Below are positions 14,393-24,359 of a DNA stretch of 64,000 bases, piece after piece. The notes beneath the pieces are model-generated. The model was given only the letters and a program-made list of their open reading frames with translations, was not told the DNA's origin and did not search any database. Numbering within the stretch: the first letter of the stretch is position 1; each line of letters opens with the position of its first letter. The stretch is from positions 1-64,000 of the forward strand of contig JAICXQ010000003.1 of NCBI GenBank assembly GCA_025980325.1, in the 5' to 3' direction. The position numbers and the translations under genes were made by a program. Source of the stretch: Frankiales bacterium. Lineage in GTDB: Bacteria; Actinomycetota; Actinomycetes; JAFAQI01.

Positions 14393-14491
14393 AGAGTGAT
14401 AGGGGTTCGGTCGGTTGTCAAGCACTTTCGTTACGCGAGGACGGGTGCCGCGTACCACCCCACAGATGCCCAGCCGAGGAGACCTGTCGCA

Positions 14492-16177
14492 GTGACACCA
14501 CGATTGCGCCTGTCGCACCGCCCCGGATTGTTGCTTCTTGCGATGGCCATGAGCGTGCTCGGTTTTGGATTGGTGTCGGCGGGCGCGCAGCCGGCGCTCG
14601 ACGATCCGCCGCCGAGCGGGACGCCGTCCACCGACAGCTGCACGCACATGCCGAGCACCAAACCGCCCGTCGTACCGACGCAACCGACCGCATCGTTGAC
14701 ACCGGCCACGCGCCACCTCACCCTCAACCCCGGTCAGTCGGCGACCGTCCCGGTGAGCATCGTGCAGCCGGCGCAGGAACTCGACGCGTTCTTCCTCGAG
14801 GACAACGGCACGAAGAGCGAGTTCACCCACTGCGCTTTCCAGGGCGGCTTGCTGTGGGCGACCACGCGGTTGGCGAAGGAGCGCAACGTTCGCGTGGGCT
14901 TGGGCAACTTCGGCGACTACACGGGCTTCGAGTTGTTGCCGAGTGGCAGCACGGGCTTCGACGAGGCCCAAGGATCCAGCGGTGTCTACTACCTGGACTC
15001 GCCGATCCAGCGACCCGGTCGGGACTTTTTCACCGACGTGATGTACCTCGGCAGCGCGTGGCGGGGAACGTGGCACGCGACGAGTGGTGACCAAGCCGCG
15101 CTGGAGGCCGTGTATCAGGCCGCCACCGGCGCGGGTCATGTCATCGCGCCCGGCGACGTGGACAACATTCCCGCCGGTGCCGGTGCCGATTTTCGCGACG
15201 GCGCGTTTCGGGTCGCCGTCGTCCTCGCGGGCCAGTGGTTCGACACGCCGACCCGGACCCGCGGCTATCCCGGCGCAAGCTTCGCGACCGCCGAAGCCGC
15301 GCTTCGTGACCACGGCGTCAACGTCGCCGGCGTATGGCTCGACAACGAGAACAACAAGGAAGCAAACGGCGGCGCGCAGTACGACGGCTTCGCCGACCTG
15401 CGCACGCTGGTGACGGACACCGGCAGCCGGACGTCGACTTCGCTGAACTGCGGGCCGCACCGGCCGGCGGTGCCGGCCGGAGGCCTACCGCTGTGCGTGT
15501 TCCTCGCACCCGGCGACAGCGACCCCGAAGGTGGCAACTCGGCGGCGCCGTCTCAACTCGGCCCGATGATGCGCAACCTCGTCGAGTCATTCGGGAATCC
15601 GCAACCGGTCTCGATGCAGGTGCTCGGCGGCACGAAGGTGGTCACCCGTGTGGTCGGTGCCGCGCGGCGCGGCGTGAACATCCTGCTGCCGCACGTGTTC
15701 GACGCGGCGGTCACGGTCCGCTGCGACGGTCACGCGATCGGGCACACCGTTCCGGTGCAGTTGGGCGAGGTGGTCGCCGGTCAGCCGCGCGCCGCGTCGA
15801 CGTTCACCGTCACCTGCCGCAAGCCGCCGAAGCACGCGCCGCCACCGGTCGCCGACTCGGTCATCGCAATCTTCGGGCCTGCGGACCCGCCGGCAAAGGC
15901 ATTGCTGATCACGCACGCGCCGCCGAACCCCGCACCCGCGCCGCAGATCCAGCCCCAACCGCTCGCGCAGCAGGTGCCGCAAGGCGCGGTCGCCGCCGGC
16001 CTGAGCGAGCAACCGGATCTCGTTGCTCAGACCGCCAGCGTCTCCGGCCGTACGCCGGATGCCGATCGGCTGTGGTTCGGGCTGATGGCGATGAGCGCGT
16101 TGGGCGCCGGCGCCGTACGGTGGCGGTCCTCACACTGCACCGTGTTGTTGCGCGAGACTGTCGGGCGTGGCTCCTGA
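14492..16177 (+). CDS. secreted/anchored protein with integrin beta/VWA-like domain
   Basis: About 561 residues. GTG 14492 follows GAGGAG and begins a signal peptide (RPGLLLLAMAMSVLGFGLVSAGA). The central region has features I associate with integrin-beta-type VWA folds: LDAFFLEDNGTKS in the place of the metal-binding loop, VRVGLGNFGDY, a GHVIAPGDVDNI loop and FRVAVVLAGQWFDTP. The canonical DxSxS is not intact (DNGTKS has one extra residue), so metal binding is uncertain. A Pro/Gln/Ala-rich segment precedes a C-terminal hydrophobic helix and basic tail (LWFGLMAMSALGAGAVRWR), as in wall- or membrane-anchored proteins, but there is no LPxTG. It is divergent from the GntR operon. Confidence 0.7.
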   Translation: MTPRLRLSHRPGLLLLAMAMSVLGFGLVSAGAQPALDDPPPSGTPSTDSCTHMPSTKPPVVPTQPTASLTPATRHLTLNPGQSATVPVSIVQPAQELDAFFLEDNGTKSEFTHCAFQGGLLWATTRLAKERNVRVGLGNFGDYTGFELLPSGSTGFDEAQGSSGVYYLDSPIQRPGRDFFTDVMYLGSAWRGTWHATSGDQAALEAVYQAATGAGHVIAPGDVDNIPAGAGADFRDGAFRVAVVLAGQWFDTPTRTRGYPGASFATAEAALRDHGVNVAGVWLDNENNKEANGGAQYDGFADLRTLVTDTGSRTSTSLNCGPHRPAVPAGGLPLCVFLAPGDSDPEGGNSAAPSQLGPMMRNLVESFGNPQPVSMQVLGGTKVVTRVVGAARRGVNILLPHVFDAAVTVRCDGHAIGHTVPVQLGEVVAGQPRAASTFTVTCRKPPKHAPPPVADSVIAIFGPADPPAKALLITHAPPNPAPAPQIQPQPLAQQVPQGAVAAGLSEQPDLVAQTASVSGRTPDADRLWFGLMAMSALGAGAVRWRSSHCTVLLRETVGRGS

Positions 16178-22231: not shown

Positions 22232-22642
22232 TCAATGAAGCGAGGGCGCGTACGACAGCCCGACCACGGCGCCTTCGGGTGACAGCAGGCGGGCGACGGT
22301 CTGCCCCCACGGCTCGACCTTCGCGTCGTGCAGCATCTGGTAGCCGTGCGAACGTAGCTCCGCTACGCCGTCCGCCACCGCGGCCGCATCCGCGAGCTCG
22401 AACTCCAGACTCAGCTGCGGCCTGGCAACGTCCTGGGGCCACGTACTCGTGCCGAAGCAGGCCTCGGCGGCCTGCTCCAGCGGCCAGACGCCGAAGTGCT
22501 TGCATCCGCCGATCTCCTCGCTGGCGTAGTAGTCGCCGTCGAGCTGCTTGAGCGGCAGGCCCAGCGCGTCGAGATACAGCGCCCGGCTGGCCGCCGCGTT
22601 GTCGGTGATGACCGCGACGCTGGCCACGAATTCGATCTGCAC
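22232..22642 (-). CDS. VOC-family (glyoxalase/bleomycin resistance-like) protein
   Basis: 136 residues with two beta-alpha-beta-beta-beta units: FVASVAVITDNAAASRALYLDALGL in the first half and FELADAAAVADGVAELRSHG with the final SPEGAVVGLSYAP in the second. Members are metal-dependent glyoxalases, dioxygenases or binding proteins; the ligand set is not clear enough to choose. GTG 22642 follows GGAGG at 6 nt. A TATGTT -10-like box lies about 28 bases upstream. Divergent from the PNGase A gene. Confidence 0.85.
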   Translation of the reverse strand: MQIEFVASVAVITDNAAASRALYLDALGLPLKQLDGDYYASEEIGGCKHFGVWPLEQAAEACFGTSTWPQDVARPQLSLEFELADAAAVADGVAELRSHGYQMLHDAKVEPWGQTVARLLSPEGAVVGLSYAPSLH

Positions 22643-22736
22643 GCTCCACCTCCGATGTGGGTGCTGTTCGGAACATAGCCGCGACCGCGGCAGCCCGGGA
22701 GAAGGAGTCGCGGGCCTCGGCGTCGAACCGCCGCTC

Positions 22737-24359
22737 ATGTCCAACCCCCGCCGGCGCCTTGTCGCCGCTGCCGCCGCCGCCGTCCTCGCCGCCGGCGTGA
22801 CCCTCTCGGGTGCGGCGACCGCCGTCACCGACCCGGTCAACGGCCCGTACCCGCAGGTGCACGGCGAGATGGTCACCGGCATTCCGTCGACGCCGTCCTG
22901 CACCGACACCATCGTCAGCGGCTACCGGTTCCACAACACGGCGTACGGATCGGACGCACCGTTCACCGGCGACTACGTCCCCACCTGCGCCGGGCCGTGG
23001 TCGAAGGTCGTGTTGACGATGTCGGCCAACGTGCACACCGGCACCCAGTTCGACCGCATCGGCGACGTGCTGATCGGCGGCGTCGAAATGCTGCACATGA
23101 CCACGCCGGAAGGCGAGGCCGGCGAGACGGACTGGACGATCCAGCGCGACGTGACGGCGTACTCGACGGTGCTGGCGACGCGCCAGCCGACGTACTTCAT
23201 CATCGGCAACCAGACGGACAGCACGTACACGGGTGACTTCTACGGCACGCTCTCGCTCACGTTCTATGCCGCCGATGCGAACAACCGCGCCCCGGCCGGG
23301 CCGGACGAGGTGCTCGGGTTGAACTCCGCCGTCGACCGCGGGCTGCCGACGCGCAGCGGCGACCAGCCGGTGGCCTCCGCGGTCACGATCCCGGTCAATA
23401 CGACGACGCTCACGGCCGAGGTCTTCGCGTCCGGGCACGGCGCCGAGGAAGAGGACTGGTGGAACGCGCCGTTCGCCTGCCTCACCGGCGGCATCCCGTA
23501 TCGCGAGGTCGGCATCAGCATCGACGGGCAACTCGCGGGCATCGCGCCGGTCTACCCGACGATCTACACCGGCGGCTACGGGCCGGACTTCTGGCGCCCG
23601 ATCCCGTCACCGCGCGCGCTCGACCTGCGGCCGTACGTCTTCGACCTCTCGCCGTGGATCGGCGAGCTGACCGACGGCGACCCGCACACGTTCGCGATCG
23701 CGGCGATCGGGCAGGGCGGCTGCGCGGGCTACTGGTTCCTCGGCGGCAACCTGCTGGTGACCACGAACAAGGCGAACCGCGGACGCACCACCGGCGCGAT
23801 CACCTCGTACGCCGCGCCCGCGCAGCCGACGAGCACCTCGCTGGGCCAGCAGTCGAACACCGCGAGCGACCGGACGACGAGCGCGCATCACCTCGACGTC
23901 GTCGGCTCGCTGCGGCCGGCCGGCGCGAAGGTGCCGACAACCGTGCACGTCGTGGAGGACATGTCCAACACCGCGACCGACGCGGCGCTCGACGTCGACT
24001 CCGACTGGACGTGGGACTCGTCGACCACGCGCACGACCGGCGCGACGACGTCGACCAGCAGCCAGCACAGCACGTACGAGCTGATTCGCACCGGCCCGAC
24101 GTGGAGCCTGACCGACAACCAGGACACGACGTCGACCGACGGCGGCGTGACGCGGACGACGTCGCTGCGCGACTCGATGAACACGGCCGGACCGGTGATC
24201 GGCATCACCGGGCTCGTCGGCGCGAGCCAGGAGTCGTGGCGCTACTCCACGTCGGACGGCCTGTGCGTCGACCACGAGCTCGCCTCGGCCGTGCAGAACA
24301 CGATCGTCGACACGGTCGGCAATTCCTGCGGGCCGCTGCCCGCACTCGCAGGCAGCTGA
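22737..24359 (+). CDS. secreted PNGase A-like N-glycan amidase
   Basis: 540 residues with signal peptide (RRRLVAAAAAAVLAAGVTLSGAATA). The arrangement GDYVPTCAGPWSKVVLTMSAN, FDRIGDVLIGGVEMLHMTTPEG, DWTIQRDVTAYSTVL and then a WWNAPFACLTGGIPYREVGISIDG domain matches peptide-N4-(N-acetyl-beta-glucosaminyl)asparagine amidase A. The family cleaves the Asn-GlcNAc bond and releases N-glycans, including plant types. The C-terminal 150 residues are Thr/Ser-rich and may form an extra beta domain. With the GH92 mannosidase and GH36 galactosidase in the same window it suggests glycoprotein use. Confidence 0.88.
   Translation: MSNPRRRLVAAAAAAVLAAGVTLSGAATAVTDPVNGPYPQVHGEMVTGIPSTPSCTDTIVSGYRFHNTAYGSDAPFTGDYVPTCAGPWSKVVLTMSANVHTGTQFDRIGDVLIGGVEMLHMTTPEGEAGETDWTIQRDVTAYSTVLATRQPTYFIIGNQTDSTYTGDFYGTLSLTFYAADANNRAPAGPDEVLGLNSAVDRGLPTRSGDQPVASAVTIPVNTTTLTAEVFASGHGAEEEDWWNAPFACLTGGIPYREVGISIDGQLAGIAPVYPTIYTGGYGPDFWRPIPSPRALDLRPYVFDLSPWIGELTDGDPHTFAIAAIGQGGCAGYWFLGGNLLVTTNKANRGRTTGAITSYAAPAQPTSTSLGQQSNTASDRTTSAHHLDVVGSLRPAGAKVPTTVHVVEDMSNTATDAALDVDSDWTWDSSTTRTTGATTSTSSQHSTYELIRTGPTWSLTDNQDTTSTDGGVTRTTSLRDSMNTAGPVIGITGLVGASQESWRYSTSDGLCVDHELASAVQNTIVDTVGNSCGPLPALAGS

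Follow-up and report, generated by a model that had tools for sequence, protein, structure and literature searches.

Integrins are usually regarded as having arisen in animals and their close kin, bacteria having only isolated pieces (PMC3192720). A gene within the window (the whole 64,000-nt stretch of DNA analysed here) raises the question of whether a bacterium carries an integrin-β-type head, and whether such a head could bind without its metal. An earlier note, made from the sequence, had read the gene as an anchored integrin β/VWA-like protein with an altered metal-binding loop. Here, we combine sequence profiles, structure prediction and a family survey. The reading we favour, with a probability of about 0.6, is that the protein is a cell-surface integrin-β-type headpiece that would bind a surface or matrix partner without a MIDAS metal, either as an adhesin or as a docking partner.

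Gene and encoded protein

The gene boundaries given in the earlier note stand, with a GTG start preceded by GAGGAG (Table 1). The same frame is mechanically extendable to 14396, and residues of the 561-residue protein are numbered here from that position. On sequence, the GTG at 14492 is the better start because of the ribosome-binding-site-like motif ahead of it and the clear signal peptide after it (best 19-residue hydropathy 2.1). Because long open frames come cheap in DNA of ~69% GC, coding was checked by codon-position GC and by relatives. GC at codon positions 1, 2 and 3 is 0.683, 0.551 and 0.854, respectively, and relatives match at E down to 4.1e-70, with matches in 8 of 99 related genomes (its own included). 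By both measures, the gene looks real.

The C-terminal helix and basic tail that the note had described are present: the helix comprises residues 558-574 and is followed by RWR, and its hydrophobicity is moderate, with hydropathy of just 1.07. Because the helix is weakly hydrophobic, the protein is probably, rather than certainly, membrane-anchored; we infer surface display from the same features.

Table 1. Features of the integrin-β-headpiece-like gene (window coordinates)
Feature	Position	Strand	Remarks
Shine-Dalgarno-like GAGGAG	14476..14481	+	10 nt upstream of GTG 14492; sequence
Integrin-β-headpiece-like gene	14492..16177	+	561 aa; secreted, probably membrane-anchored, usual metal residues lost
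Signal peptide	14492..14587	+	Residues 33-64; hydropathy and sequence, cut site placed by eye
Cys 82	14639..14641	+	Pairs in occurrence with Cys 146 (14831-14833)
First hybrid-domain half (strands ahead of βI)	14693..14767	+	Model strands E11-14, E18-21, E26-35; aligned to integrin β2 from chain residue 72; core-profile match begins here
βI/VWA domain	14780..15589	+	Predicted model, Foldseek, VIA-align
DNGTKS at MIDAS DxSxS position	14801..14818	+	First Asp kept; Gly and Lys stand in place of the two Ser/Thr
FGDY, Asp kept	14909..14920	+	Taken, from sequence, as the place of integrin β3 D158
Second-loop SGD	15083-15091	+	Asp kept
AGQWF, strand-D Asp of VWA metal site replaced by Gly	15227..15241	+	Alignment
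Second hybrid-domain half	15599..15817	+	Model; contains Cys 443 and Cys 474, both invariant in 16 aligned members
Pro-rich linker	15818..16066	+	Counterpart of relatives' PNPNP linkers
C-terminal moderately hydrophobic helix and basic tail RWRSSHC	16067..16138	+	Hydropathy; relatives likewise end in a hydrophobic stretch and a basic tail

Predicted fold

The 561-residue sequence used alone gives one sub-cutoff Pfam match (DUF4232, E 1.1), no NCBIfam match and no PDB match, and a sequence-pattern search matched 16 stretches, none of which encoded a relative. Residues 90-482 were examined as an AlphaFold2 model built with 14 aligned sequences (pLDDT 82.9, pTM 0.84). In the predicted model, a βI (VWA) domain of integrin-β fold is inserted in a hybrid domain, both halves of which align with integrin β. 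The best 50 of 144 Foldseek rows (E ≤0.001) are all integrin chains, with a best E of 2.5e-14. The top VIA-align row is integrin β2 (9t5z_B), with Z of 22.4 and rmsd of 4.0 (296 residues aligned, 14% identity). Integrin β7 (9p95_B) aligns with Z of 22.0 and rmsd of 4.3 (303 residues); the alignment spans model residues 5-390 and thus includes both hybrid halves.

The family-core profile also finds integrin β in the PDB. Specifically, integrin β7 is the best match (E 8.9e-12), running from the hybrid strand onward, and 59 of the best 60 rows (76 matched) are integrin β, the other being complement factor B (E 0.035). A second profile likewise gives integrin β in 59 of its best 60 rows (61 matched); the exception is collagen VI, matched over residues 43-95 only (E 3e-8). 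A single canonical member is too distant to serve as query by itself, returning one row, integrin β7, at E 1.5. The control L030, another actinobacterial VWA protein, matches integrin β8 best (E 0.0018), and 17 of its 18 rows are integrin. By this sequence comparison, integrin-β likeness is wider than the family of the 561-residue protein, and L030, which has a hybrid-like strand by eye, may be integrin-like itself rather than a clean negative control.

These results bear on the earlier note in two ways. The strands it had likened to integrin-β A domains, VRVGLGNFGDY (14888-14920) and FRVAVVLAGQWFD (15206-15244), both lie in the plus-strand frame, and a fold unrelated to VWA, the outcome it had named as counting against it, did not emerge from structure prediction and Foldseek, which found integrin β instead. 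The A domain and altered loop it described are there; the hybrid domain around βI, and the absence of the relatives' N-terminal propeller described below, had escaped it.

A generic VWA domain next to an unrelated β-sandwich could look integrin-like if the common VWA fold were inflated by the many integrins in the PDB. VIA-align rows covering the I-domain alone reach Z of at most 18.7 (185-208 residues aligned), and collagen VI, the short exception above, is a VWA protein. Other headpiece rows fall from Z of 22.4 to 18.1, so some of these score on a par with the I-domain rows; many have rmsd near 11, which probably reflects a different hybrid angle. However, the best rows align sandwich strands on either side of βI, extending ~90-100 residues beyond the I-domain rows with higher Z, and the profile match begins in the hybrid strand, which makes a generic VWA domain very improbable. 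A plain VWA domain was set aside because hybrid strands on either side also align.

Family and architecture

Most of the relatives fetched have open frames 826-1013 codons long. Their usual layout is a signal peptide, a stretch of ~350 residues that in most members contains Asp-box motifs, the shared core, a PNPNP-type linker, a hydrophobic stretch and a basic tail, and in most of them a propeller precedes hybrid-βI in the same chain. The 561-residue protein has just ~33 residues from signal peptide to hybrid strand, and so no N-terminal propeller; a loose pattern finds no Asp-box-like motif in it, nor in some longer members. Cys 352, 367, 443 and 474 are invariant in 16 of 16 aligned members, this protein included. 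It matches the family-core profile at E 2.0e-112, being itself one of the profile's 16 rows. With Pfam at E up to 1, Integrin_beta is matched by 12 of the 16 members, Sortilin-Vps10 by 11 and BNR by 9, and none of these by the 561-residue protein. Of the five members listed individually, two score above the Integrin_beta cutoff, and every other match stays below cutoff.

The propeller was modelled in the relative L067 and matches 7-bladed propellers at Z of 23.6-25.1. Many 7-bladed kinds tie in Z, integrin αL (24.0) among them, so the predicted fold does not distinguish this propeller from the integrin α type; its sequence points to Asp-box/xyloglucanase propellers. The whole-chain model of L067 has pLDDT of 78.8 and pTM of 0.49, too low to place the propeller against βI.

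Seven genomes searched exhaustively contain 3 to 9 matches each (5 in the source genome, G000), gene pieces and copies cut by contig ends included. A class survey scoring at most five candidates per genome finds matches in 25 of 393 genomes, of which 12 are strong (best E <1e-80) and 13 weak and partial, and a phylum survey finds them in 6 of 396 genomes at E up to 1e-20, the source genome included; both surveys draw genomes evenly, and their counts are not whole-group frequencies. The 35 named loci comprise 12 from Frankiaceae/Frankiales MAGs, one from another Actinomycetota MAG and 22 weaker ones from other groups, of which L079 and L080 were read.

Several members were noted in their own right. 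L105:2233-3825 and L106:2695-5193 (both minus strand) have no propeller by eye and keep the DxSxS loop; propeller absence is thus not tied to metal loss. L110:1102-4932, of 1277 codons, has by eye extra propeller-like repeats before the usual architecture. C-termini such as those of L069 and L074 carry a recurrent LAMS/LAFS-like motif, preceded by QxQLA, ahead of the hydrophobic stretch and basic tail. By a loose pattern, the motif occurs in 22 of 37 members (one or more by chance) and is not found in the 561-residue protein; it could be a sorting signal. A paralogue in the source genome, L063 (G000:C72:5200-6312), has one in-frame TAG. In an Acidobacteria MAG, L080:3555-8237 looks by eye like FG-GAP repeats followed by an integrin-β-like VWA domain (DASNSF loop), which would combine both integrin-type parts in one chain. 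L084, an integrin-like VWA protein, is from a record titled as a Klebsiella pneumoniae MAG, a label that looks doubtful.

Metal site and a clade lacking its usual residues

In integrin β3, the MIDAS ligands are D119, S121, S123 and E220, with D251 listed under ADMIDAS, and D158 is a SyMBS ligand (PMC3792891). The Asp at the strand end is a vWA metal residue (PMC7159879). In the 561-residue protein, the positions of DxSxS, E220 and the strand-D Asp are occupied by DNGTKS, Gln and Gly, respectively. The loop change had been spotted in the earlier note and turns out to be common to a whole clade; the second loss, the strand-D Asp, had been missed despite lying within the strand it quoted. The FxDY Asp, a SyMBS candidate, is kept, with the alignment at other SyMBS ligands being uncertain.

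The metal columns were tabulated over 37 strong members (>180 bits; L079 left out, and further matches from the exhaustive and phylum searches outside the table). D-x-[ST]-x-S is kept in 33 of them; L049 keeps it and has Asn in place of the strand-D Asp. In the remaining four, which come from three genomes, the strand-D Asp and the two hydroxyl residues are all missing. Specifically, the loop and strand-D motifs are DNGTKS and AGQ in the 561-residue protein, DTGPRS and AGK in L002, DVGPRS and AGK in L044, and DMGPRS and TGQ in L003. The E220 column has Gln or Gly in the four; it is weaker evidence of metal loss because Gln is also found in L064 and L065.

A tree was built from 40 of the 49 rows that have 200 or more filled columns, the other nine being omitted; in it the four metal-less proteins form one clade (100/100) even with the DxSxS and strand-D columns masked. 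All four have Cys 82, before the hybrid strand, and Cys 146, in the first βI helix, which may form a disulfide; both are absent in the two canonical members listed. L002, L003 and L044 keep the propeller. We infer from the alignment that MIDAS metal binding is absent in this clade.

The site might instead survive in shifted form, with a divalent ion bound by D136, S141 and the second-loop Asp (in SGD); the protein would then be a conventional MIDAS adhesin whose loop is unusual. All four clade members do keep the first Asp, followed by Ser at position 6, as well as the FxDY Asp and the second-loop Asp ([SN]GD). But the same four proteins have substitutions at the strand-D Asp together with both hydroxyl positions, with Lys or Arg in place of the second Ser, and we consider a shifted site unlikely.

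Genomic context

Upstream of the gene, on the opposite strand, are a GntR gene, an ABC ATPase gene and a gene resembling ABC-2 permeases, whose Pfam match is sub-cutoff. The downstream neighbour encodes a mycothiol S-transferase. Among ten neighbours scanned, with the ORFs between 18.1 and 22.5 kb outside the scan, there is one DUF5925/AAA ATPase and no MoxR. A gene for a PNGaseA-type peptide N-glycanase (Pfam E 4.3e-57) lies at 22548-23996 of the window.

Two same-genus genomes, G001 and G002, were searched beside the transferase. In the sister species G001, an M48 peptidase (92%), the transferase (80%) and an Rrf2 gene (81%) occur in kept order, and neither the integrin-like gene nor the other intervening window genes tried are found in the 8.0 kb examined. 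No match to the gene is found on the 3.5-kb G002 contig, which includes 2.1 kb ahead of the transferase, no orthologue in 6.0 kb beside the transferase in G009, and no orthologue of the short, propeller-less form among the genomes searched. The absence in G001 and G002 indicates either a gain of this copy in the source genome or its loss from those two.

The other three clade members, in three genomes of two families, sit behind a double-AAA ATPase gene and a gene for a PQQ-type propeller that is secreted; the adjacent genes of the 561-residue protein differ, and it is outside that three-gene block. The block, ending in the metal-less propeller-βI gene, was seen at L077:1-6542, L078:34-6470 and L101:7762-11821, the L044 copy being in L101. 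Its first two genes have identities of 92% and 74% between G002 and G000, and of 71% and 33% between G002 and G062. Elsewhere, downstream of a family member, L072:5825-10364 has six open frames in a row for similar-looking secreted proteins of ~200 residues; a similar protein in L070 has no Pfam match.

The gene might also be a decaying paralogue, with its propeller cut off, its metal site gone and the gene itself being lost. The missing propeller, the top identity of just 36% (to a clade mate) with an end branch of 1.36, and the lack of a counterpart next to the transferase in G001 and G002 are all in line with decay. Against it, the frame, signal peptide, Shine-Dalgarno-like motif and GC3 bias are intact, the cysteines are conserved, and the metal loss is common to three propeller-bearing relatives in a conserved three-gene block. 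Decay thus seems a doubtful account of the gene.

Discussion

Sequence and prediction give the fold, residue changes, clade and architecture; anchoring, lack of metal binding and adhesion are deduced from them. The core is predicted to be a βI domain inserted in a two-part hybrid β-sandwich, which the Pro-rich linker and C-terminal helix would hold away from the membrane. In the bacterial family this headpiece mostly has an Asp-box propeller, predicted to be 7-bladed, ahead of it in the chain, and its MIDAS is intact. In the clade, MIDAS is dismantled by replacement of Ser/Thr with Gly and Lys/Arg and of the strand-D Asp with Gly, and the fold, hybrid cysteines and FxDY Asp are kept, with an extra Cys pair; the 561-residue copy additionally lacks the propeller. 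Most likely, a partner would be bound via the βI face with no bridging MIDAS metal, the protein either acting as an adhesin that needs no metal or docking with another surface protein. Integrins bind an Asp of their ligand via the MIDAS metal, and mutating the MIDAS eliminates this binding (PMC3792891); R261 holds the βA domain against the α propeller (PMC12383024). Metal-independent binding is favoured because a MIDAS-less headpiece could still offer a docking surface.

A more specific and rather speculative reading is that these bacteria display single-chain integrin heads, in which an alpha-like propeller docks on a β-like hybrid-βI in membrane-anchored paralogue families, and that the 561-residue protein is a metal-less, propeller-less β-type subunit. 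It would then dock in trans onto a separate propeller, either that of a paralogue or the PQQ propeller encoded next to its clade mates, giving a bacterial two-chain head.

Bacterial integrin-β-like proteins are already known (PMC3192720, PMC2651865). In open-licence literature, among the matches listed, none describes an Asp-box propeller fused to an integrin-β-like headpiece or a metal-less integrin-β-like clade in bacteria. Beyond VWA alone, the composite β headpiece, with βI inside hybrid, is here predicted for bacterial proteins. In most of them it shares a chain with a propeller, a genome has several copies, and there are metal-bearing and metal-less lineages. Such a collection lends itself to studying how a head of this kind operates when α/β pairing is absent, and whether βI can bind without its metal.

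Among known systems, the integrin β headpiece (PF00362, Integrin_beta) likewise has βI in a two-part hybrid domain and provides the best structural matches. The 561-residue protein differs in being bacterial and in having no PF00362 match, full MIDAS set or known α partner; a Pfam scan finds no PSI, I-EGF or β-tail match, and a Pro-rich linker follows the hybrid half. The model also matches the I-domain of Pactolus, an integrin beta-2-like protein (PDB 2iue), with Z of 18.5 and rmsd of 2.5 (187 residues aligned). Pactolus is mammalian and is likewise not known to have a working MIDAS; the metal loss in the clade is separate from that in Pactolus.

In bacteria, integrin-β-like proteins are on record in cyanobacteria (PMC2651865), and a Trichodesmium erythraeum protein is described as homologous to integrin β over >450 residues, with no EGF repeats and no transmembrane segment (PMC3192720). 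It shares the βA domain, and the passages on it in these two papers do not mention metal loss. Of the 16 family members scanned, 11 match the domain of the Dictyostelium Sib proteins (PF24909, vWA_SIBA-E) at E ≤1, below the cutoff in all five tabulated; the Sib proteins differ in being eukaryotic adhesion receptors with other repeats (PMC2651865).

Two systems that combine vWA domains with propellers, the PilY1-type pilus-tip adhesin and the MoxR-vWA-propeller system, were set aside on architecture and neighbourhood. Some PilY1 adhesins have a MIDAS-bearing VWA domain and a 7-bladed propeller in one protein, but that propeller is C-terminal and of PilY1 type (PMC13190605), and the 561-residue protein has none; its Pfam scan shows no PilY1 propeller, with linker and helix alone after the hybrid half. 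MoxR-vWA ternary systems are built around a MoxR ATPase, with the propeller C-terminal to vWA in the propeller subsystem (PMC7159879). They nevertheless provide a precedent, in that a subset of their vWA domains is without one or both metal aspartates, and for such domains another mode of peptide recognition has been suggested (PMC7159879).
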